IMG/VR virus record: IMGVR_UViG_3300027736_000302
Location: 1-20,129 of that record
Length of the DNA stretch: 20,129 nucleotides
From: a virus
Reading direction: 5' to 3' (one strand)
The position numbers and the translations under genes are program-made. Numbering within the stretch: the stretch's first letter is position 1; every line of letters starts with the position of its first letter. Below are positions 2,591 to 11,551 of this stretch, piece by piece. The notes beneath the pieces were generated by a model, which did no database searches, was not told where the DNA came from, and saw nothing but the letters and a program-made list of their open reading frames with translations.

Positions 2591-2873
2591 TGCTACACTG
2601 CCAGGGGTCAAACCAGCAGTTGCTTGACCCAATTATAAGCAAAGAAACGCGCAAAGTAAACGGATTTAAGCCCTTTTTCATCTTTTTTTGTAGCAGGAAA
2701 CCCTTTCTGCTACACTCCTGCTACATTATCTGCTACACTTTAAATCTTTATATGGTCTATATTTATATTACTTTGTAGCATGTAGCAGAAGAAATAGAGA
2801 TATAGTAACTTATTTAAAACACTGCATTCTAATAAAAGGTTGGAAAACGTCCTGCTACATGCTACGTGCTACA
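2591..2873. repeat. Iteron-like array: ten TGCTACA/TGCTACG 7-mers in both orientations
   Basis: Plus-strand copies of TGCTACA start at 2591, 2708, 2719, 2731, 2853 and 2867, with one TGCTACG at 2860. Inverse copies (TGTAGCA) start at 2689, 2774 and 2781. Copies at 2853, 2860 and 2867 are contiguous, as are those at 2774 and 2781, while 2708, 2719 and 2731 are spaced 11-12 bp, about one helical turn. Several continue into CTTT or AAAG. An eleventh, partial copy (GCTACA) sits in the hairpin loop at 2553. The stretch 2485-2945 has no convincing gene. Short direct and inverted repeats around AT-rich DNA beside a replication ATPase are typical of a replication origin. An operator array for a regulator of the two divergent operons is the main alternative. 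Confidence 0.6.
2738..2773. other. AT-rich core between repeat clusters (possible DNA unwinding element)
   Basis: This roughly 36-bp stretch is almost entirely A and T, with TTTAAAT, TTTATAT and ATATTTATATTA. It is bounded on the left by the phased TGCTACA copies and on the right by the tandem inverse copies at 2774-2787. This placement is expected for an origin melting site, but it could also hold -10 elements for divergent promoters. No confident promoter can be picked on either strand. Confidence 0.4.
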
Positions 2874-2945
2874 CTTTGCCATCTTGAAACGGTCAACTCT
2901 TGCCAAAGCAAGATTCAAGAAGTAGACTTGATGCAGGGGGATCAA

Positions 2946-3758
2946 ATGTCAAAAGACGTTAAAGACCGAATCCGAATTGAGTGCAGCGGTGCCGACTCGC
3001 TGCCACTGGATGCCATTGAGGAGTTTCAGGGAAACTTAAAGAAACGCGGAAAAAAGGAAATTGACCAGATCATGACTTCAATCCAGCGCTTTGGATTTTC
3101 TTTTCCTTTCTTTGTCTGGCGGGGAGAGGGCCACAACTATTGCCTTGACGGCCATGGAAGAATCCAGGCACTGGCTGAACTTAGGCGTAAGGGCCACGAC
3201 CTGCCGTTGTTTCCGGTCGCATATATCGAAGCTAAAAGCATAGACGAAGCCAAAAACAAGCTACTCAGACTTAATAGCCAATACGGAACGATGAGCATCA
3301 AGTCAGTGCTAGAGTTTACTGAAGGCATGGAAATGGAGTGGGGCGAACTTGCATTGTCAGACGGTACGGAATTAATCTTGACAGGAAATCAAGACAATGA
3401 TGACGATATGTACTCTAGGAAGATTTTGGCCCCGACCTACGAACCAAAGAACGAAAAGCCGGATATTAAATCATTGACCGATGAAACAAAAGCCCATCAA
3501 CTGATAACCGATATCTCAATGGCCGACATCCCAGAGAGCGAAAAAAGATTCCTAACACAAGCGGCCATGCGACACATTGTTTTCGATTATGGCAAAATTG
3601 CCGACTACTATTCTCATTCCGGCCCTGTTGTTCAAGACATGATGGAACGCTCTGCCCTTGTGATAATCGACTTTGACAAGGCAATTGAAAACGGCTATGT
3701 GCAACTTTCACAGGAACTAGCGGAACAGTATGACTTGGACGTGTCTAATGAGGGATGA
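2946..3758 (+). CDS. ParB-like nuclease-domain protein with phage modification-associated C-terminal domain
   Basis: The 270-residue start at 2946 is preferred because AGGGGG lies 5 nt upstream. An in-frame ATG at 2859 lies inside the repeat array and has no binding site. Residues 15-115 form a ParB/Srx domain: the motif LDGHGR at 67-72 fits the conserved DGHxR box, and NKLLRLNSQYG (104-114) is typical of phage ParB-like proteins. Residues 155-265 (from SRKILAPTYEP to LAEQYDLD) form a second conserved region that I know from phage ParB-like proteins encoded next to glycosyltransferases and DNA methylases. The gene overlaps the glycosyltransferase by 11 bp, which implies coupled translation. 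Partition is unlikely because no ParA is visible. Nicking or DNA-site recognition for base modification is the better inference. Confidence 0.82.
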   Translation: MSKDVKDRIRIECSGADSLPLDAIEEFQGNLKKRGKKEIDQIMTSIQRFGFSFPFFVWRGEGHNYCLDGHGRIQALAELRRKGHDLPLFPVAYIEAKSIDEAKNKLLRLNSQYGTMSIKSVLEFTEGMEMEWGELALSDGTELILTGNQDNDDDMYSRKILAPTYEPKNEKPDIKSLTDETKAHQLITDISMADIPESEKRFLTQAAMRHIVFDYGKIADYYSHSGPVVQDMMERSALVIIDFDKAIENGYVQLSQELAEQYDLDVSNEG

Positions 3759-4626
3759 CTTTGCTGCCTTTATTCTGACCCATGGAAGGCCAGATAATGT
3801 TAAGACCCTAGAAACAATAAGAAAACAGAATTACACAGGAAAGGTGTACCTGATCGTAGACGATCAAGACAAAAAGCTGGAAGAATACAAAAATAATCAT
3901 GGCCACAGCGTCATCGTTTTTGACAAAGTAAAGGCAGCATCTGAAACAGACTCGGGTGATAATTTCGGAGATTTGAGGTCAGTCCTGTATGCCAGAAACG
4001 CTTGTTTCGGAATAGCAAAAGAACTGGGGTTGAAGTATTTTGTCCAGCTTGACGATGACTATTCATCATTTCAATATCGTAGAGATTTCAACGGGGATAT
4101 AATAAAAGGGACAACCATAAAAAACCTCGATGCTGTCTTCGAAAGGTTTATTGAATACCTTGTAAAAAGTGGAGCAAAAAGCATCGCGATGGCTCAGGGT
4201 GGCGACTTTATGGGAGGTAGAGACAATGCAAAGTTCAAACATGGTTTTAAACCTATGCGCAAAGCCATGAACAGTTTTTTTTGCCGAGTAGATAACCCGT
4301 TTAACTTTGTCGCAAAAATGAATGACGACGTAACGACCTTTTCTATACTTGGTCAAAAGGGCGACATATTCCTAACCATACCAAACTGTGCTTTAGTTCA
4401 GACGCCAACTCAGTCCAATCTAGGTGGACTCACCGACCTATACCTGAAATACGGGACTTATGTGAAGAGCTTTTACACTGTTATGTTTTGCCCTTCCTTT
4501 ACAATTATTAGGATGATGGGGCAATCGCATAGGAGGCTTCACCATGCAACATCCTGGATAAATGCTGTTCCGATGATACTTGACGAAAAAGTAAGAAAAA
4601 CAAGGGAAATCTCCCATGTCAAGTAA
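3748..4626 (+). CDS. TET-associated-type glycosyltransferase (TAGT-like), probable DNA base glycosylation
   Basis: This 292-residue protein looks like the phage TET-associated glycosyltransferase family (GT-A-like, related to the GREB1 C-terminal domain). It opens with AAFILTHGRPDN (residues 6-17), has VYLIVDDQD (33-41) for nucleotide-sugar binding, and the metal-binding triad LDDDYSSF (101-108). AQGGDFMGG (149-157) and a conserved MNDDVTTF motif (191-198) follow. The ATG at 3748 is chosen so that the family N-terminus starts at once; an ATG at 3730 would add six residues inside the ParB gene. Known family members are predicted to glycosylate modified bases in phage DNA, often with ParB-domain partners. 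No TET/JBP oxygenase or hydroxymethylase is visible here, so the acceptor base is unknown. A protein-glycan target is the alternative. Confidence 0.8.
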   Translation: MRDDFAAFILTHGRPDNVKTLETIRKQNYTGKVYLIVDDQDKKLEEYKNNHGHSVIVFDKVKAASETDSGDNFGDLRSVLYARNACFGIAKELGLKYFVQLDDDYSSFQYRRDFNGDIIKGTTIKNLDAVFERFIEYLVKSGAKSIAMAQGGDFMGGRDNAKFKHGFKPMRKAMNSFFCRVDNPFNFVAKMNDDVTTFSILGQKGDIFLTIPNCALVQTPTQSNLGGLTDLYLKYGTYVKSFYTVMFCPSFTIIRMMGQSHRRLHHATSWINAVPMILDEKVRKTREISHVK

Positions 4627-4773
4627 AGCAGGGTTTGACGCATTATGAAACTTGACCTCAAGTACTGCGATGTAATCCGCAGAAGATGGACAAAATGGGC
4701 CACCGAAAACGGCCAAGAAGTCGGAACCGGAGGTTTAGAAATGATTAAGGAACAGAAAGATGCCAAACCCTGA
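4616..4773 (+). pseudogene. Remnant of the C-terminal end of a DNA methyltransferase (or 42-residue peptide)
   Basis: An ATG at 4645 opens a 42-residue frame beginning MKLDLKYCDVIRRRW. This closely resembles the C-terminal ELDPKYCDVI(I/V)xRW segment of phage N4/N6 DNA methyltransferases, where it follows the last strand of the Rossmann fold. In a neighbouring frame, 4616-4645 reads MSSKAGFDAL, which would fit the residues expected just before that segment (as in CxKAGFDA-xxMELDPKY). The two pieces meet at about 4640-4648 with a one-base frame change. No upstream methylase motifs (DPPY, FxGxG) exist, so it cannot be an active enzyme. It overlaps the small terminase start by 14 bp. I infer a deleted methylase next to the modification genes. 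It could still be translated as a short peptide. Confidence 0.5.
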
Positions 4774-5158
4774 AAACTTAAAATCTCTTGGTGATTTAAC
4801 AACGACTGAACAACGGAAAATAGCTACCCTCGGTGGAATCCGTTCCGGAGAGGTGCGACGAGAAAAGGCCAAAATGTCGGCCATGTGGGCCAACTGGCTG
4901 GCTGAAGAGCATGGCATAACCATAGACGGCAAAATGCAAAAACTTTCTGGTAAAGCGCTGCTGGAACGGATCACCACCAAAATCCTCATAGAAGGGTCTC
5001 CGACCTCGGTTTCTATGATGCGGTTGATGCTTGATGCCACCGAAGGTGCCAAGTCTCGGCTCTCCGGCCCAGACGGCGACGACCTGTTTAAAGCCTTTGA
5101 CTCCAAGCCAGAGGCCGAGCTGCGGGCTATTGCCGGTATTCCTGAGCTGGAACTGTGA
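4760..5158 (+). CDS. terS: Probable terminase small subunit
   Basis: This 132-residue protein has the N-terminal pattern LTTTEQRKIATLGGIRSGEV (13-32) followed by basic residues. This resembles small DNA-binding proteins annotated as terminase small subunits in phages of Gram-positive bacteria. The middle (MQKLSGKALLERITTKILIEG, about 59-79) and the C-terminal acidic stretch fit an oligomerising domain and a TerL-contact tail. Its stop overlaps the GTG start of the large subunit by 4 bp, the standard arrangement for terS-terL pairs. A ribosome binding site AAGGA lies 8 nt before the ATG. Identification rests mainly on position and the N-terminal pattern. It would bind the packaging site on phage DNA and recruit TerL. 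Confidence 0.72.
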   Translation: MPNPENLKSLGDLTTTEQRKIATLGGIRSGEVRREKAKMSAMWANWLAEEHGITIDGKMQKLSGKALLERITTKILIEGSPTSVSMMRLMLDATEGAKSRLSGPDGDDLFKAFDSKPEAELRAIAGIPELEL

Positions 5159-6591
5159 CCAAGGAAGAGATCCACGCCAGAATTAGCCTTGCTCGTCAGC
5201 ACCTGGCACACTTCACCAAGCTTACCTTTCCGGCTTACGACCTGACCCGCAGCCATCAACTGTTTGCAGGTGTCCTTAATGCTTTCGCTCACGGCAAGAT
5301 CCGCAAGCTAATCATCAGCCAGCCACCCCAGCACGGTAAGTCCGAGCTTTCCTCCCGCCGGTTACCGGCCTTCCTTTTAGGCAAATATCCCGATTCGCAG
5401 ATTGCCATTGCAGCCTATTCCCAATCTTTTGCCCGAAAGTTTGGACGGGAGGTTCGTCGGATCATGGCCGATGACAAATACCGGCACATCTTCCCCGCCT
5501 CGCGCTTGGCCGAGCCTATAGACAAGGGCTATACCAACTCAGCCGACATAGCCGAAATTGTCGGTCACCGGGGTTCGTTGATTCTTGCCGGCCGAGGTTC
5601 TGGCCTGACTGGTATGCCGGTCGACTGGCTTTTAATGGACGATCTGTACAAAAACTCCGAAGAGGCCAACTCCCCCATAGTGCGGGCTTCTGTCATAGAA
5701 TGGTACAAGACCGTCGCAGAAACCCGGCTTCACAACGACTCGCATCAGTTAATTGTGTTTACCCGCTGGCATCAAGAAGACCTAGTTGGCTGGCTTGAGT
5801 CTCAAGGCTTGGTTGATGAGTTAACCGATCGGGCGCAACTTGAGGACGCGGATCCTTCGCGCTGGCTCAAACTCAATTTTCCGGCGATCAAGGATGGCCC
5901 AGCCATTGACCTTGATCCTCGTGAACCTGGGGAAGCGCTTTGGCCCGATCGGCACTCAACAGCGCGACTTCTGGAAAAGAAAACCCAAGACACAGAGGTC
6001 TTTGACTCTCTCTATCAAGGCAACCCAAAGCCGTCCAAAGGTTTGCTCTATGAAGGTGGGTTCTTGGAATACGATAACCTTCCCGAAGTGATCAGCAGCC
6101 GGTGGGCATATGTCGACACGGCAGACGAAGGAAAGGATTACCTTTGTGCCATTTGCGCTGTTTTCGGTGCAGATAAAATCTATATCGTTGATATTCTCTA
6201 CACCCAAGACGGCCAAGAGATCACCGAGCCGTTGAGCGCCGACTTGTTCAAGCGCAACCTAGTCGACACCGCGCACGTTGAATCCAACGCCGGAGGGCGA
6301 GCATTTGCCAGAGCAGTCCAAAGGCAACTTGAGGCTGATCGAAGCCAAGTCAAGGTTCGATGGTTCACCCAGACCAAAAACAAAGAGGCAAGAATCATCA
6401 CCAACTCCAGCCAAGCCCGGCAATCGGTTGTATTCCCCAGAGGCTGGCGTACCCGCTGGCCCGAGTTCTCCCGGCACATCTTAGAGTTCAGAAAGGTGTT
6501 TCGTTCCAACTCGCACGACGATGCTGCCGACGCGCTGACCGGAATTATCGAAAACTCACCACTGGTTCATTCGTTCGGCTTTGTGCTATAA
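5155..6591 (+). CDS. terL: Terminase large subunit (DNA packaging ATPase and nuclease)
   Basis: The 478-residue protein begins with a GTG that overlaps the terS stop (GTGA). The N-terminal ATPase has Walker A QPPQHGKS (57-64), Walker B DWLLMDD (157-163) with the catalytic acidic residue, and the coupling motif VFTRWH (201-206). The C-terminal RNase H-fold nuclease begins around YVDTADEGKDY (319-329). It shows acidic positions D321, E376 in the VESNAGG stretch, and D455/D456/D459 in SHDDAADA, as in Terminase_6C-type enzymes. All key residues are present and the length is normal. The motor sits at the portal vertex and cuts and packages concatemeric DNA. The gene is followed by a small zinc-finger gene and then a terminator. 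Confidence 0.95.
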   Translation: MTKEEIHARISLARQHLAHFTKLTFPAYDLTRSHQLFAGVLNAFAHGKIRKLIISQPPQHGKSELSSRRLPAFLLGKYPDSQIAIAAYSQSFARKFGREVRRIMADDKYRHIFPASRLAEPIDKGYTNSADIAEIVGHRGSLILAGRGSGLTGMPVDWLLMDDLYKNSEEANSPIVRASVIEWYKTVAETRLHNDSHQLIVFTRWHQEDLVGWLESQGLVDELTDRAQLEDADPSRWLKLNFPAIKDGPAIDLDPREPGEALWPDRHSTARLLEKKTQDTEVFDSLYQGNPKPSKGLLYEGGFLEYDNLPEVISSRWAYVDTADEGKDYLCAICAVFGADKIYIVDILYTQDGQEITEPLSADLFKRNLVDTAHVESNAGGRAFARAVQRQLEADRSQVKVRWFTQTKNKEARIITNSSQARQSVVFPRGWRTRWPEFSRHILEFRKVFRSNSHDDAADALTGIIENSPLVHSFGFVL

Positions 6592-6608: not shown

Positions 6609-6782
6609 ATGATAGTTTCAGGATTTTGTCATTGCGAGTTTCCAGCCATTCACAAGTGCGTTAAATGCGGGGAGAAACTTTGCAACAACCACTTTCCCTC
6701 TCACGTCTGCTCAGGTGATCTATTCCCAGCAGCCAAGACGGCTAAAGTGATCAAACCCGGCAATCCTCCCCGGACAAAATAA
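6609..6782 (+). CDS. AN1-like zinc-finger small protein, 57 residues
   Basis: The ATG at 6609 follows AAGGAGGGCAAA, an excellent ribosome binding site nearly identical to that of the tail tube gene. The protein contains C7, C9, C17, C20, C25, H28, H32 and C34. The run C-x2-C-G-x2-L-C-x2-H-x3-H-x-C (17-34) is close to the C-terminal half of an AN1 zinc finger (C-x-C-G-x2-F-C-x2-H-x5-H-x-C). C7-x-C9 could complete a second metal site. The remaining ~20 residues are basic and proline-rich, ending NPPRTK. It lies between terL and the terminator, so it is the last gene of the terminase transcript. HNH nucleases often sit here in HK97-like phages, but no HNH motif is present. Metal binding is likely; the function is unknown. 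Confidence 0.72.
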   Translation: MIVSGFCHCEFPAIHKCVKCGEKLCNNHFPSHVCSGDLFPAAKTAKVIKPGNPPRTK

Positions 6783-6800: not shown

Positions 6801-6838
6801 CCGGCTCAGGTGGCCCCCCTGCCTGAGCCGGTTTTTTT
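6801..6838 (+). terminator. Strong intrinsic terminator after the terminase operon
   Basis: CCGGCTCAGG (6801-6810) pairs perfectly with CCTGAGCCGG (6822-6831), a 10-bp GC-rich stem with an 11-nt loop, followed by TTTTTTT (6832-6838). It ends the transcript carrying terS, terL and the zinc-finger gene, and separates it from the ferritin/head operon. Confidence 0.9.
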
Positions 6839-6846
6839 ATGTATCC

Positions 6847-6876
6847 TTGACAAAGCCTTGAATAGGTTAGCATTAT
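6847..6876 (+). promoter_or_regulatory. Sigma70-type promoter of the ferritin-head operon
   Basis: TTGACA (6847-6852) is a perfect -35 element. CATTAT (6871-6876) is a 4-of-6 match to the -10 element, with an 18-nt spacer. It lies 9 nt after the terminator T-tract and 22 nt before the ferritin ATG, leaving a very short leader with GGGAGGG at 6887-6893. The terminator-promoter pair indicates a new transcription unit whose first gene is ferritin. Confidence 0.65.
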
Positions 6877-6898
6877 CAACCAGAACGGGAGGGCCCCG

Positions 6899-7420
6899 AT
6901 GATATTGTCGAGCAATGTTCTTGTTTTGCTTTCGCAGCAGTATGCCCGCGAAGTTTCCAACTCGCTGGTTTATGACCTTTTTTCCTCTTGGGCAGCCGAC
7001 AACGGACTGACAGGAACCGAAAAGCTCATGAAGTCGCAGGCCAACGGCGAGCGTGATCACGCTGCCAAGGTGCTGGCTTATATTTCCGACCGCAACGCCC
7101 AGTTGATTCCTGAGTCAATAATGCTCACCACACCGCCAACCGGCTTTTTTGATTTGCTGACCAGATACCAGCAATTAGAGCGCGACACCACGGATCAGAT
7201 TATGGTTCTTCACGCTGGAGCCTATCAAGCGGAAGACTATGCAACTTGCGCTTGGCTCAATCAGCCAGGCGGTCTAGTGCTTGAGCAAATAGAAGAAGAG
7301 GCGCTTGTCCAGACTATTCTTGACCGCGCGGCCATTCGCACCGGCAACGATTCTTTGACCGGCGAAGACCTGGGAGAAGCAATTCACGACCTAGATATTT
7401 TTGTTGGTAAGCGCGCATGA
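6899..7420 (+). CDS. Ferritin (non-haem, FtnA-like) encoded in the phage head operon
   Basis: The 173-residue protein has the length and helix pattern of classical 24-subunit ferritin. Ferroxidase-centre ligands seen in bacterial ferritins are present: E18, E51 and H54 in GERDH, E94 in LERD, and Q130/E133 in LEQIEEEAL. E129 and E132 could add third-site ligands, while the residue equivalent to E. coli FtnA E49 is Gly50. Spacing E18-E51 (33) matches FtnA, but E94-Q130 is three longer because of an NQPGG insertion (121-125) in helix D. It should oxidise Fe(II) and store iron. It sits between a terminator/promoter pair and the portal gene, with its stop overlapping the portal start (ATGA), so it is an integral part of the late operon. 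The family is confident; virion association is not shown. Confidence 0.88.
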   Translation: MILSSNVLVLLSQQYAREVSNSLVYDLFSSWAADNGLTGTEKLMKSQANGERDHAAKVLAYISDRNAQLIPESIMLTTPPTGFFDLLTRYQQLERDTTDQIMVLHAGAYQAEDYATCAWLNQPGGLVLEQIEEEALVQTILDRAAIRTGNDSLTGEDLGEAIHDLDIFVGKRA

Positions 7421-9534
7421 GTCTGCTTGATCGGTTATTCGGCAAGGCCGTCAACCCAAACGCAACTCTAAACCGCACTTGGAGCCAAGCACCGCGCTCG
7501 GAAACAACCCGGCTTCCGCAGCTCTTTCACCAGTCCCCGCGCCTTGATCCGGTAGAACTGATCGCCTCAACCATTGCAGGCGCGCCAATGGAAATCTTTG
7601 ACCGCATCCAACTTAGGCGTGACCCGAAAGCAATTCCGGCAGCCGATCACCCTTTTTACGACCTCATGGACAACCCGACCCCAATGTTCCCCGAGCTGGA
7701 TGAGTACGCTCTCAAATACATCACCGTGGTCTTGGTCGAGCTTCTGGGTGAGTGTTTTTGGATAAAGATCCGTGATGGCCGGAAGGTCGTCGAGCTTCTC
7801 CCCATGCCACCGGCGTGGTGTATCCTCACCCCAACCAGCGCCAACCCCCGATTCCTGTTTCAGCCCTTTGGAACTACTGCCGGTAAAACGCTGCAAGTAG
7901 CACCAGAAGATGTGGTCTGGTTTAAGCAACCCGACATCACCGACCCCTACGGAAGAGGCCGGGGAAGGACTGAAGCAGTCGGCGGAGAGCTGGACTCCGA
8001 CGAGATGGCCGAAAAGTGGCAAAAGAACTATTTCTACAACGACGCTACCCCGCCATTCTGGGCCAACTTGCCCGGCGTACAGACCAGCGACCTTGAGCGG
8101 ATGCGAGACTCTTGGAGCCAGCGCCTTGGCGGTTGGCTCAATGCCCGCAAACCAGCTTTTACCAATTCCGAAAACCTCCAGATCACCAAGCTAGCCGATT
8201 CAATGCGGGAGATGGACTTCGTTCAATCCCGCAAATGGATGCGCGACGTATTCCTGCAGCACTACGCCATACCGCCGGAAATGTTCGGCATCCTTGAGTC
8301 TAGCAACCGATCGACCATCGACTCGGCCTATTACCTTTTTAGCAAGAACGTCGTTTCTAAACGCCTTGGCTTTTACGAGCGAGCAATAAATCGGCAGCTT
8401 GTTTCGGTCGACTTTGACAACCGGCTTGTGGTCAAGTTTAAGTTTCAGATCCCAGAAGATGAGCAGTTTACTTTGACCAAGGTTAATGAGGGCCTGGCTC
8501 GCGGCGCTCTCACCCGAGCCGACTGGAAAAAGGCTATGGGTTACCCTGTTGAGGCCGGTGATGAAGTCTACCTTATTCCCTATTCTTTGGCCGAAGTTCC
8601 CAAGGGAGGCGTAAAGCCAGCACCCGAACAGCCATCGGTAGTTCCGGCCCCCGCAGAATCAGAAGAAACTGTCGAGCCTTTTGTCGAGGTCGCAGATGCA
8701 GATCAACCGGCACCGGCTCCCGCCAAGTCGGCCACCATCGGAACCCCGCGCAAGCTTGAACACTGGAAGGCTGCGGACTCAAAAGCCACCCAAGGTGAAG
8801 GAATGTTCCGATCAAGGATAAGAACCTACTCGGCCACCCAGCAGGCCAGACTCAACAAGGAACTGACCAAGAACCCAGAAGCCTACCAGAAAGCACTTGA
8901 TACCGCGTTCTCTGGTGCCGATGAGGCTTTGCTTCACGCTCTGGCCCCGGCTTGGCTGGCCTCAATGACCGATGGCGCCGAGCTTGGAAGAAACGTACTG
9001 TCTAAAAAGGTGGCACCGTCCTTTACTCTTTACAACAAAGAGTTCGACGCTTGGGTCAAACTTCACGGCCTTAAAAAGGCCAAAGAGATCAACGAGACCA
9101 CATATAACAATTTGCGAACCAAAATGGCCGAGCAAGTTGCCCTTGGAATTGGTGCAGGTGAAGGTGTCGGGGTTGGAATCAGCGGGCAACAGATCGCACC
9201 GCTATCTCAGCGGATGCTTGACGTTACCGCTGGAGTTTACGAGGACATGAGCGGTTACCGCGCCACCATGATTGCCAGAACCGAAACCATGACAAGCGTT
9301 AACTTTGGGCAACAGGTTGTCTATGAGTCTGAAGGCGTGAAGCAAAAAGAATGGACGGCCACGCAAGATGAGCGCACCCGGCAAGATCACCTTGACGCTG
9401 ACGCTCAGGTAGTTGCCATCGATGAAGCATTTACCGTCGGAGGCCAGCAGCTTGAATACCCTGGCGACCCCAGAGGCGACGCTGGCAACGTGATAAATTG
9501 CCGTTGCACCATCTTGCCGGTTATTGACGGTTAA
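7417..9534 (+). CDS. Portal protein fused to a Mu gpF-like minor head protein
   Basis: This 705-residue protein is longer than a usual HK97-type portal (about 400-450 residues). Residues 1-395 are portal-like, with an SRKWMRDVFLQHYAIPPEMFG segment near 270 and STIDSAYYLFSKNVV after it, typical of the phage_portal family stem. A Pro/Ala/Glu-rich linker (about 395-435) follows. The C-terminal ~270 residues end in a Mu F-like domain: IARTETMTSVNFGQ (618-631), then WTATQDERTRQDHLDAD and NCRCTILPV near 694-702. The portal forms the dodecameric DNA entry ring, and MuF-like domains lie inside the head and may be ejected. The start overlaps the ferritin stop. A weak in-frame internal start (M463, 8803) precedes the MuF part. 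Confidence 0.9.
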   Translation: MSLLDRLFGKAVNPNATLNRTWSQAPRSETTRLPQLFHQSPRLDPVELIASTIAGAPMEIFDRIQLRRDPKAIPAADHPFYDLMDNPTPMFPELDEYALKYITVVLVELLGECFWIKIRDGRKVVELLPMPPAWCILTPTSANPRFLFQPFGTTAGKTLQVAPEDVVWFKQPDITDPYGRGRGRTEAVGGELDSDEMAEKWQKNYFYNDATPPFWANLPGVQTSDLERMRDSWSQRLGGWLNARKPAFTNSENLQITKLADSMREMDFVQSRKWMRDVFLQHYAIPPEMFGILESSNRSTIDSAYYLFSKNVVSKRLGFYERAINRQLVSVDFDNRLVVKFKFQIPEDEQFTLTKVNEGLARGALTRADWKKAMGYPVEAGDEVYLIPYSLAEVPKGGVKPAPEQPSVVPAPAESEETVEPFVEVADADQPAPAPAKSATIGTPRKLEHWKAADSKATQGEGMFRSRIRTYSATQQARLNKELTKNPEAYQKALDTAFSGADEALLHALAPAWLASMTDGAELGRNVLSKKVAPSFTLYNKEFDAWVKLHGLKKAKEINETTYNNLRTKMAEQVALGIGAGEGVGVGISGQQIAPLSQRMLDVTAGVYEDMSGYRATMIARTETMTSVNFGQQVVYESEGVKQKEWTATQDERTRQDHLDADAQVVAIDEAFTVGGQQLEYPGDPRGDAGNVINCRCTILPVIDG

Positions 9535-9551: not shown

Positions 9552-10361
9552 ATGCAAACCATGAACGCGACCAAAAACTTTTCTGTTACTTCCAAAGATT
9601 CCTCAACCAACTCGCGTATCATTCGCTTTGTCGGTTCCGACGAGTCGGTCGACCGCGACGGCGACACTATCGCAGTCGACGGCTGGGACTTGGCAGCCTA
9701 CACCAAAAACCCTGTCGTTCTCTACGGCCACGACCAGCGAGACCTTCCCATCGGTCGTTCTGTGGTCACCATTGACCGGCGAGCAAAGCAGCTTCTTTTT
9801 GACGTAAAGTTTCCCACCATTGCCGAGCTTTCAAGCGACCCAGATCACCCTTCGGAACACGCTCTAAAGGTCGACGCTATCTACAACCTCGCCAAGGCCG
9901 GTATACTCAATACGGTTTCGGTTGGCTTTCGTGGCATCGACTACGAGACCACCTCGACCGGATACGCTTTCAAGAAACAAGAACTAATGGAAGTCTCGCT
10001 GGTTCCTGTGCCTGCCAACCCCAACGCCATTGCCATCCTCCGTGCCGCCAGTTTCGGCGACGCAATCATTAAAGGAGTCACTACCATGACCGAAAAACTT
10101 ACCGAAAAAGGCAATCGCCGACTGTCTATGGAATCGAAAGCCATGTTGGATATGCTACATTCTGACATGATGAAGGCCTGCACAACGCTGCGCGGTTTCA
10201 TCGATATGGGAGAACCCGACACTTACATGGCCGACGGTATGGGAAATATGCCGGCCGACGACAAGACCGGAAACCCGGTTGTCGGCCAAGAGATCGGCTC
10301 GAACGTAAACGAGCAGCAACCAGCAAAGGATTTTATCGAGATCGTGGAGAAGAACTCCTAG
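9552..10361 (+). CDS. Prohead (capsid maturation) protease, HK97 family
   Basis: The 269-residue protein contains the U35/HK97 protease pattern: SVDRDGD (32-38), a catalytic His in VLYGHDQRDLPIGR (H60), and the nucleophile Ser in LNTVSVGFRG (S123). A conserved acidic strand ELMEVSLVPVPANPNA (144-159) follows. Family-length proteases end near residue 175, so the last ~91 residues are extra and look like a scaffold or delta-type segment with its own start (see 10086). The enzyme assembles inside the prohead, cleaves the capsid protein N-terminal domain and itself. The start is ATG 9552 after AAAAAAAGAGG; ATG 9561 is a close alternative. Confidence 0.9.
   Translation: MQTMNATKNFSVTSKDSSTNSRIIRFVGSDESVDRDGDTIAVDGWDLAAYTKNPVVLYGHDQRDLPIGRSVVTIDRRAKQLLFDVKFPTIAELSSDPDHPSEHALKVDAIYNLAKAGILNTVSVGFRGIDYETTSTGYAFKKQELMEVSLVPVPANPNAIAILRAASFGDAIIKGVTTMTEKLTEKGNRRLSMESKAMLDMLHSDMMKACTTLRGFIDMGEPDTYMADGMGNMPADDKTGNPVVGQEIGSNVNEQQPAKDFIEIVEKNS
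10071..10077 (+). promoter_or_regulatory. Internal ribosome binding site inside the protease gene
   Basis: AAAGGAG at 10071-10077 stands 8 nt before an in-frame ATG at 10086. It falls exactly at the end of the conserved protease fold. It supports separate initiation of the C-terminal segment, as with lambda C and Nu3. Confidence 0.55.
10086..10361 (+). CDS. Probable nested capsid scaffold protein, 91 residues (in-frame internal start)
   Basis: Starting at Met179 of the protease, this product would be MTEKLTEKGNRRLSMESKAM onward. It begins with a charged helix-prone section (residues 1-40), continues through a Gly/Asp/Met-rich middle and ends acidic (IEIVEKNS). Low hydrophobicity and high charge fit a scaffold. 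A consensus ribosome binding site sits in front of it. In lambda, scaffold gpNu3 is made from an in-frame start within protease gene C; HK97 instead fuses its scaffold to the capsid protein. Here the capsid protein also has a ~90-residue N-terminal delta-like domain, so the nested product may be an extra scaffold or may simply target the protease. This is inferred from the start signal and composition, not homology. Confidence 0.5.
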   Translation: MTEKLTEKGNRRLSMESKAMLDMLHSDMMKACTTLRGFIDMGEPDTYMADGMGNMPADDKTGNPVVGQEIGSNVNEQQPAKDFIEIVEKNS

Positions 10362-10390: not shown

Positions 10391-11551
10391 ATGGGTGCTT
10401 TGACTATGGACGAGCTTGACGCAAAAATTGATAGCAAGCTCAACGAGAAGAAGTCGGCTTTGAGGGCCGAGTTTCAAGAAGTTTTTGACGCCTCGCACGC
10501 CGAAGCGGTACACAAAGGTTACAAGGAAGAGCCAGCGGTCATCAAGCTCGGCAAACTGATCAACCTGTTTGGTCAGTCTGGCGGTTCGGTCGACAAGATG
10601 GCTTTCCTGAGCAAGAAGATGTACGGCGACGACAAAGAAATCGGCGGGTACGTTTCCAAGGCTCTTGAGGCCGGTGTTCCTTCCTCGGGTGGCTTTGGCA
10701 TTCCCCAGGTTCTTTCGGCTCGCGTGATCGAGGCTCTTTACGCTCAGACTATCCTCGACAAAGCTGCCGTTACCCGCCTGCCGATGCCCAACGGAAACCT
10801 CCGCTTGGCTCGTATGGATACGACCTCCACTGTCGGTTGGGTTGGCGAGCTTCCCGCTGCCAGCACCACTCAGCCCGTTTATGGAGACGTAAACCTGTCT
10901 GCCAAGAAACTGTTTGCCATCAGCGAAATCAGCAACTCGTTGATTCGCTACAACTCGGTTGGAATCGAAGGCTGGCTGGCCCGCGACCTCCAGAAGAAGT
11001 TTCGCTTGGCTCTCGACTACGCTGCGTTCTACGGTCCCGGCACCCAGTACTCACCCAACGGCCTGACCAACCTCGGCGTCCAGACCATTGGATCTTCCTC
11101 GACCGTTCTCGACCAGTTCGCTCCCCGCAACATGATTGCGCTCCTAAAGGCTGCCAACGTCCCCATGACCAACCCTCATTGGGCCATGTCGCCCCAGATG
11201 GAATCGTGGCTCATGAACTTGAAGACCACCACCGGCGCTTGGATCTTCTTGCAGGAAATGAGCGAGCGCGGAACCCTGGCTGGCTACCCTTACCATGTAT
11301 CGACTCAAATCAGCTACACCGACACGACCGTCGACTACGGCGACCTGTGGCTCGGAGACTTTGATGAGTTTATGTGGGGAACCGGATTGGACATGGAACT
11401 TCGCATGAGCCAAGATGCGGCCTTTGTTTCTTCGGGAACGACCTATTCCAGCTTCCAGCGCGACTCGGCCCTTGTCCGCGTGGTCGGCGAGCATGACTTC
11501 AACGTGATGCACCCTGTCTCGTTCGTTCAGGGAACCTACTCGGTTTCCTAA
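10391..11551 (+). CDS. Major capsid protein, HK97 fold
   Basis: The 386-residue protein follows a strong AAGGAGG site. Residues 1-90 are charged and helical (MDELDAKIDSKLNEKKSALR...) and correspond to the delta domain removed by the protease. Cleavage probably falls near KALEAGVPSSGG (90-101). The rest is a typical phage_capsid family domain: PQVLSARVIEALYAQTILDKAAVTRLPMPNG, then KKLFAISEISNSLI (E-loop/P-domain region), FYGPGTQYSPNGLTN, and a C-terminal segment with VRVVGEHDFNVMHPVSFV. It would form the icosahedral shell. The HK97 fold is shared with encapsulins, which often enclose ferritin-like cargo; this matters because of the upstream ferritin gene. Confidence 0.93.
   Translation: MGALTMDELDAKIDSKLNEKKSALRAEFQEVFDASHAEAVHKGYKEEPAVIKLGKLINLFGQSGGSVDKMAFLSKKMYGDDKEIGGYVSKALEAGVPSSGGFGIPQVLSARVIEALYAQTILDKAAVTRLPMPNGNLRLARMDTTSTVGWVGELPAASTTQPVYGDVNLSAKKLFAISEISNSLIRYNSVGIEGWLARDLQKKFRLALDYAAFYGPGTQYSPNGLTNLGVQTIGSSSTVLDQFAPRNMIALLKAANVPMTNPHWAMSPQMESWLMNLKTTTGAWIFLQEMSERGTLAGYPYHVSTQISYTDTTVDYGDLWLGDFDEFMWGTGLDMELRMSQDAAFVSSGTTYSSFQRDSALVRVVGEHDFNVMHPVSFVQGTYSVS

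Follow-up and report, generated by a model that had tools for sequence, protein, structure and literature searches.

Ferritin-superfamily proteins are already known in phages, both as Dps, a 12-mer with inter-subunit sites, and as proteins annotated as ferritins. Among the entries of a viral-protein structure library are the ferritin of an uncultured marine phage and a 'Ferritin heavy chain' from a siphovirus. Gratiaviridae phages carry Dps and Mn-catalase (PMC8008677), and Lactobacillus phages carry Dps-like proteins, with the gene located near DNA-metabolism genes (PMC6669764). In the Enterocloster phage PMBT24 the product of ORF39, two genes past the portal, is annotated as ferritin (PMC11035940). 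Host mutants in iron uptake are infected about as well as the wild type by a Vi01-like phage (PMC10892097).

The ferritin analysed here is encoded in 20,129 nucleotides of viral DNA (IMG/VR record IMGVR_UViG_3300027736_000302), the whole of which is termed the window. Like the Gratiaviridae and Lactobacillus phage proteins it is a phage-borne member of the ferritin superfamily, a class thought to counter oxidative stress, but its gene adjoins that of the portal, unlike the Dps-like gene of the Lactobacillus phages. With encapsulated ferritin (EncFtn) and its encapsulin shell it shares the encoding of a ferritin-like protein near the gene for an HK97-fold shell. No description of a portal–ferritin module was found in the open-access papers searched, in agreement with an earlier sequence-only reading of this DNA that knew of no phage system with a ferritin at this position.

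Organization of the locus

The features of the region are itemized in Table 1. A strong terminator and then a TTGACA promoter precede the ferritin gene, the first of the operon, which is directly adjacent to the portal gene on the same strand. Both control elements, which the sequence-only reading had singled out, exceed shuffle expectation. The overlap that it described between the ferritin stop codon and the portal start is present as an ATGA junction, with TGA at 7418–7420 and ATG at 7417–7419. The terminator stands between the head operon and the terminase side, and three related contigs (L002–L004) retain it. TTGACA lies 5′ of the ferritin in the window group, L020 and L043, which supports the ferritin opening the head operon. 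The same reading placed the ferritin between terminase and portal. Adjacency to the portal holds, whereas the 57-aa CxxC protein intervenes on the other side, so that the ferritin is not immediately beside terL. A small CxxC zinc-finger-like protein is kept between terL and portal whether or not a ferritin is present (L020, 5018–5227; L043, 3231–3434; also L016, L018, L094 and L096).

Table 1. Features of the terminase and head region of the window
Feature	Position	Strand	Evidence
Large terminase (phrog_38 family)	5155..6591	+	Pfam/PHROG profile searches
57-aa CxxC (zinc-finger-like) protein between terL and terminator	6609..6782	+	sequence
Intrinsic terminator, 13-bp GC-rich stem, 7 T	6801..6838	+	exceeds shuffles
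Sigma70-like promoter TTGACA-18-CATTAT	6847..6876	+	exceeds shuffles
RBS-like GGGAGGG	6887..6893	+	sequence; similar GGGAGG in L043
Ferritin, FtnA-type, 173 aa	6899..7420	+	ORF, Pfam, alignment, AlphaFold model
Portal fused to Mu F-like minor head domain (phrog_2662; PF04860 and PF04233)	7417..9534	+	
Prohead protease (PF04586)	9552..10361	+	Pfam/PHROG profile searches
HK97-fold major capsid protein (PF05065)	10391..11551	+	Pfam/PHROG profile searches

Four other IMG/VR contigs, derived from other metagenome assemblies (L002, L003, L004 and L005/L013), have the same ferritin–portal junction with 96–99% identity, and a fifth (L007) starts inside the ferritin gene. The occurrence of one junction in independent assemblies excludes misassembly.

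The ferritin subunit and its active site

The window protein matches the Pfam ferritin family PF00210 (E = 2.9e-13; 50.4 bits against a curated cut-off of 24.5), and a phmmer search of the PDB matches it to the ferritin of Pyrococcus furiosus (E about 1e-11). It falls well below the cut-offs of the NCBIfam non-heme ferritin equivalogs NF007638 (37.8 against 178 bits) and NF011597 (29.4 against 154 bits), and is thus not an E. coli-type equivalog. All the viral ferritins tested match phrog_16594, a viral family for which no function or position is given; the match of the window protein is weaker (E = 1.6e-11) than those of members like the L048 ferritin (E = 1.8e-27).

An AlphaFold model of the monomer, calculated from an alignment of 18 viral ferritins, has a mean pLDDT of 95.7 and a pTM of 0.90. 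The predicted structure is a four-helix bundle (residues 5–34, 38–64, 83–110 and 114–148, the last broken) followed by helix E (residues 155–172). VIA-align superimposes it upon Vibrio cholerae ferritin (3qz3) with Z = 23.9 and an rmsd of 1.2 Å over 161 residues, and the top Foldseek matches are the ferritins of Helicobacter pylori, Thermotoga maritima and P. furiosus. The fold, length, ligands and helix E are those of the bacterial and archaeal non-haem FtnA ferritins (P. furiosus, T. maritima, V. cholerae and E. coli FtnA). Unlike these, the window ferritin is encoded by a phage in a head operon, it shares with its closest group an insertion of three residues ahead of the fourth helix, and there is a distinct helix E motif, HD-[IL]-D-x-[WF].

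Alignment places the C-terminus of the protein on the helix E of other ferritins, and in the model its own helix E reaches residue 172 of 173, with no C-terminal targeting tail. EncFtn, by contrast, is a short two-helix protein that forms a decamer and carries a targeting peptide. The window protein, a full five-helix subunit of 173 aa that is predicted to form cages and is encoded in a phage operon, is therefore not an EncFtn. The parallel with encapsulins drawn in the sequence-only reading finds no support as a mechanism, and the analogy with encapsulin cargo is weak.

The ferroxidase ligands of the window ferritin are E18, Y25, E51, H54, E94, E129, Q130 and E133. Sites A and B are complete (E18, E51, H54, E94, Q130 and E133, together with Y25), and the ligands named from the sequence line up with the known ferroxidase ligands, as does the reading of the gene as a complete 173-residue ferritin with the Pfam match. 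E18, E51, H54, E94, Q130 and E133 are unchanged in 55 of 55 aligned viral and cellular ferritins, and all eight positions are identical in 22 of 22 viral ferritins from varied phages (pairwise identity down to 16%) and in 12 of 12 full-length ferritins located 5′ of a portal; the invariance of E129, Q130 and E133 is partly ascertained because these residues are part of most of the search patterns, while E18, Y25, E51, H54 and E94 lie outside them. Every ligand is also retained at the loci found with portal patterns alone (L037, L040, L041, L043 and L045). Between close relatives dN is 0.008–0.020 and dS is 0.20–0.23 (dN/dS about 0.03–0.10). Taken with the invariant ligands, we conclude from these sequence comparisons that the ferritin chemistry is kept by purifying selection. 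The window ferritin is a complete and apparently active iron-storage protein.

Recurrence of the ferritin in phage genomes

Scans were made both with portal patterns and with ferritin patterns; the viral contigs are mostly fragments, and pattern scans miss degenerate ferritins. In 13 contig lineages (portals about 25–75% identical) the gene directly 5′ of one kind of portal is a ferritin; the portals of the window and L057 have phrog_2662 as best match, and the others are assigned by similarity to these two. The lineages are the window group, L015 (partial), L020, L043, L037/L038, L040/L042, L041, L045, L057, L094, L096, L097 and L104. Most of the ferritin–portal junctions overlap or abut (ATGA, TAATG). 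Scans with ferritin patterns alone place the gene directly beside a portal in 8 of 18 distinct viral contigs (counted by hand), and in 5 of the 12 that were new in one of these scans; at an assumed, notional chance of 1 in 30 per contig, and for this small sample, the binomial tails are 5e-8 and 3e-5 respectively, or 2e-4 when the count is restricted to about ten lineages.

Three other portal families have a ferritin directly on their 3′ side. In L024 (83.5 kb) the order is portal (phrog_9232), ferritin, two further proteins and capsid protein; in L052 and L061 the portal is of phrog_2739; and in L053/L058/L126 the order is TerL (phrog_6681), portal (phrog_6547), ferritin, scaffold-like protein and major capsid protein (phrog_11589). 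The ferritins of L053 and L058 branch inside the cellular ferritins (96/95 support for the enclosing set), away from the group 5′ of portals. On this tree at least one of the 3′ ferritins is a separate acquisition, and one unrelated lineage at least would have taken its own ferritin into the same neighbourhood. The recurrence beside four portal families upholds the proposal that the gene is built into the head module and is not loose cargo. The expectation that it recurs between terL and portal stands for the portal, which is a constant neighbour, and not for TerL, which varies or is absent. In L049 and L050 the ferritin belongs to a head module without directly adjoining the portal, and in L054 it is shortly 5′ of TerL. 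The C-terminus of the L049 portal (3451–5640) matches ADP-ribosyltransferase PHROGs, so that one module would combine a ferritin with a portal whose tail may be enzymatic.

Pairwise distances of ferritin and portal are strongly correlated (Mantel r = 0.84, p = 1e-4, 12 pairs), and the eight 5′-portal ferritins present in the large tree form one group with 94/98 support. The adjacent terminase is of the phrog_38 type or the phrog_2/3717 type, with at least three changes of family on the same tree. Judged by these distances and trees, ferritin and portal co-diverge while the terminase family has been swapped at least three times. Relatives without a ferritin are nested among the carriers, a pattern consistent with an ancestral gene that was lost several times; their existence indicates that the ferritin is dispensable in some settings. 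These are L016, L018 and L036, where a search of the whole record found no ferritin, L031 and probably L039, the last two being fragments. What began as a curiosity becomes a repeated genomic rule, in which an intact ferritin stays coupled to the portal through terminase swaps.

A second conserved location has the order ClpP-like protease, RNase H, a protein of ~110 aa, ferritin, a 98-aa protein, a protein of ~283 aa and DNA polymerase. It is found in contigs of up to 213 kb (L006, 5956–6465; L022, L059, L060 and L106–L117) that seem to belong to a large phage group in which the ferritin would be early or middle. Linkage to the portal is therefore one of at least two stable arrangements, and not the sole one. 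In L025 (G012:C1:21284-21721) the ferritin frame holds three TGA codons and some neighbouring genes look split; the TGA codons would fit a phage that reads TGA as an amino acid.

A tblastn search of 50,697 phage records gave no match to the window and L020 ferritins. Other viral ferritins matched MT836766, MT838721, MT838998 and MT839617 (L008–L011) and two Staphylococcus records. L008–L011 are faecal scaffolds named 'Bacteriophage sp.' that carry cellular-type ferritins, and they were set aside because their metabolic neighbours make them look like bacterial contaminants. The L051 ferritin was counted as bacterial, since it falls with a chromosomal ferritin of Bacteroidota and a TonB-type gene lies next to it. 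A scan of bacterial genomes for prophage hosts returned only a cellular ferritin of Amoebophilaceae, and the ferritins found in Bacteroidota genomes have contexts that look cellular where inspected. ORF39 of PMBT24 was rejected as a cultured example, as PF00210 does not match it and most of the ferroxidase ligands are absent. The near-portal protein of cultured Enterocloster phages, annotated as ferritin in PMBT24 (L092, 18788–19288) and as hypothetical in CB457P1 (L093, 12010–12516), ends in a WGIKGVKL tail, lacks a Pfam ferritin match and is missing most ferroxidase ligands; either degeneration of a four-helix bundle or an annotation error may account for it.

Possible roles of the ferritin

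Ferritin and portal are paired in many phages that are only distantly related, or even unrelated, and iron handling therefore seems tied to head production. The role with the best support is detoxification of iron while the phage replicates and packages its DNA and the host collapses. In the form that we favour, to which we give an even chance, a working ferritin nanocage is made with the late head proteins, removes Fe2+ and limits Fenton damage during DNA packaging. The window subunits would assemble into the usual 24-subunit cage, where the di-iron centre would oxidize Fe2+ and the ferric product would be stored. The ferritin would open the head operon, with transcription from its own promoter and translational coupling to the portal, and the cage would thus be made while capsids are being assembled and filled. 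The likely benefit is that free Fe2+ would be cleared from a dying, iron-rich host cell, sparing phage DNA and head proteins some hydroxyl-radical damage at the stage of replication and packaging. The second ferritin family argues against a late-head role, since in the replication region the timing would be early or middle.

The linkage to the portal rather than the terminase, and the strong co-divergence with it, could also reflect a physical interaction, with cages, or subunits at the portal vertex, co-assembled into the prohead and carrying iron or protecting the packaged genome. The window portal has a Mu F-like domain, and genes next to portals commonly code for internal or minor head proteins. 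A virion preparation of the Vi01-like phage contained a protein called as ferritin by Phyre2 (PMC10892097). Incorporation into the virion is nevertheless unlikely in our view, given a C-terminus that is an ordinary helix E without a targeting tail, and a replication-region family without portal linkage. A 12-nm cage cannot pass the portal channel, so delivery of the ferritin into the host is improbable too. We are similarly sceptical of the broader proposal that iron-loaded cages or portal-bound ferritin in or on the virion are a counterpart of the encapsulin compartment, reached by a different route and acquired repeatedly beside portals.

The full storage-type fold and conserved ligands are consistent with an auxiliary iron store that serves iron enzymes of host or phage (such as ribonucleotide reductase) or deprives competitors, the portal site being an inherited late-expression slot. 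A metabolic role of this kind would fit the second site beside DNA-polymerase genes, and other phages have Dps-like and Mn-catalase genes (PMC8008677). We consider it doubtful, as a late placement leaves little time to use the stored iron, and persistence through terminase swaps and beside three further portal families points to more than an accidental slot. The PMBT24 protein, near a portal yet without the Pfam signature and most of the ligands, raises the idea of a structural four-helix bundle that has the ferritin fold and not its chemistry, such as a scaffold or portal-assembly factor; for the window family this is very improbable, since the ligands are all invariant even at loci found by portal patterns alone.

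The recurrence brings three questions within reach of experiment: whether host iron is managed by phages as their heads are filled, whether there is iron in virions (the Ferrojan-horse question), and whether ferritins have been associated with HK97-type heads outside encapsulins.

At 2859–4626 of the window a ParB-like protein (identified by eye) adjoins a TET-associated glycosyltransferase (PF20691, E = 3e-32), an arrangement suggestive of hypermodified bases in the DNA of this phage.
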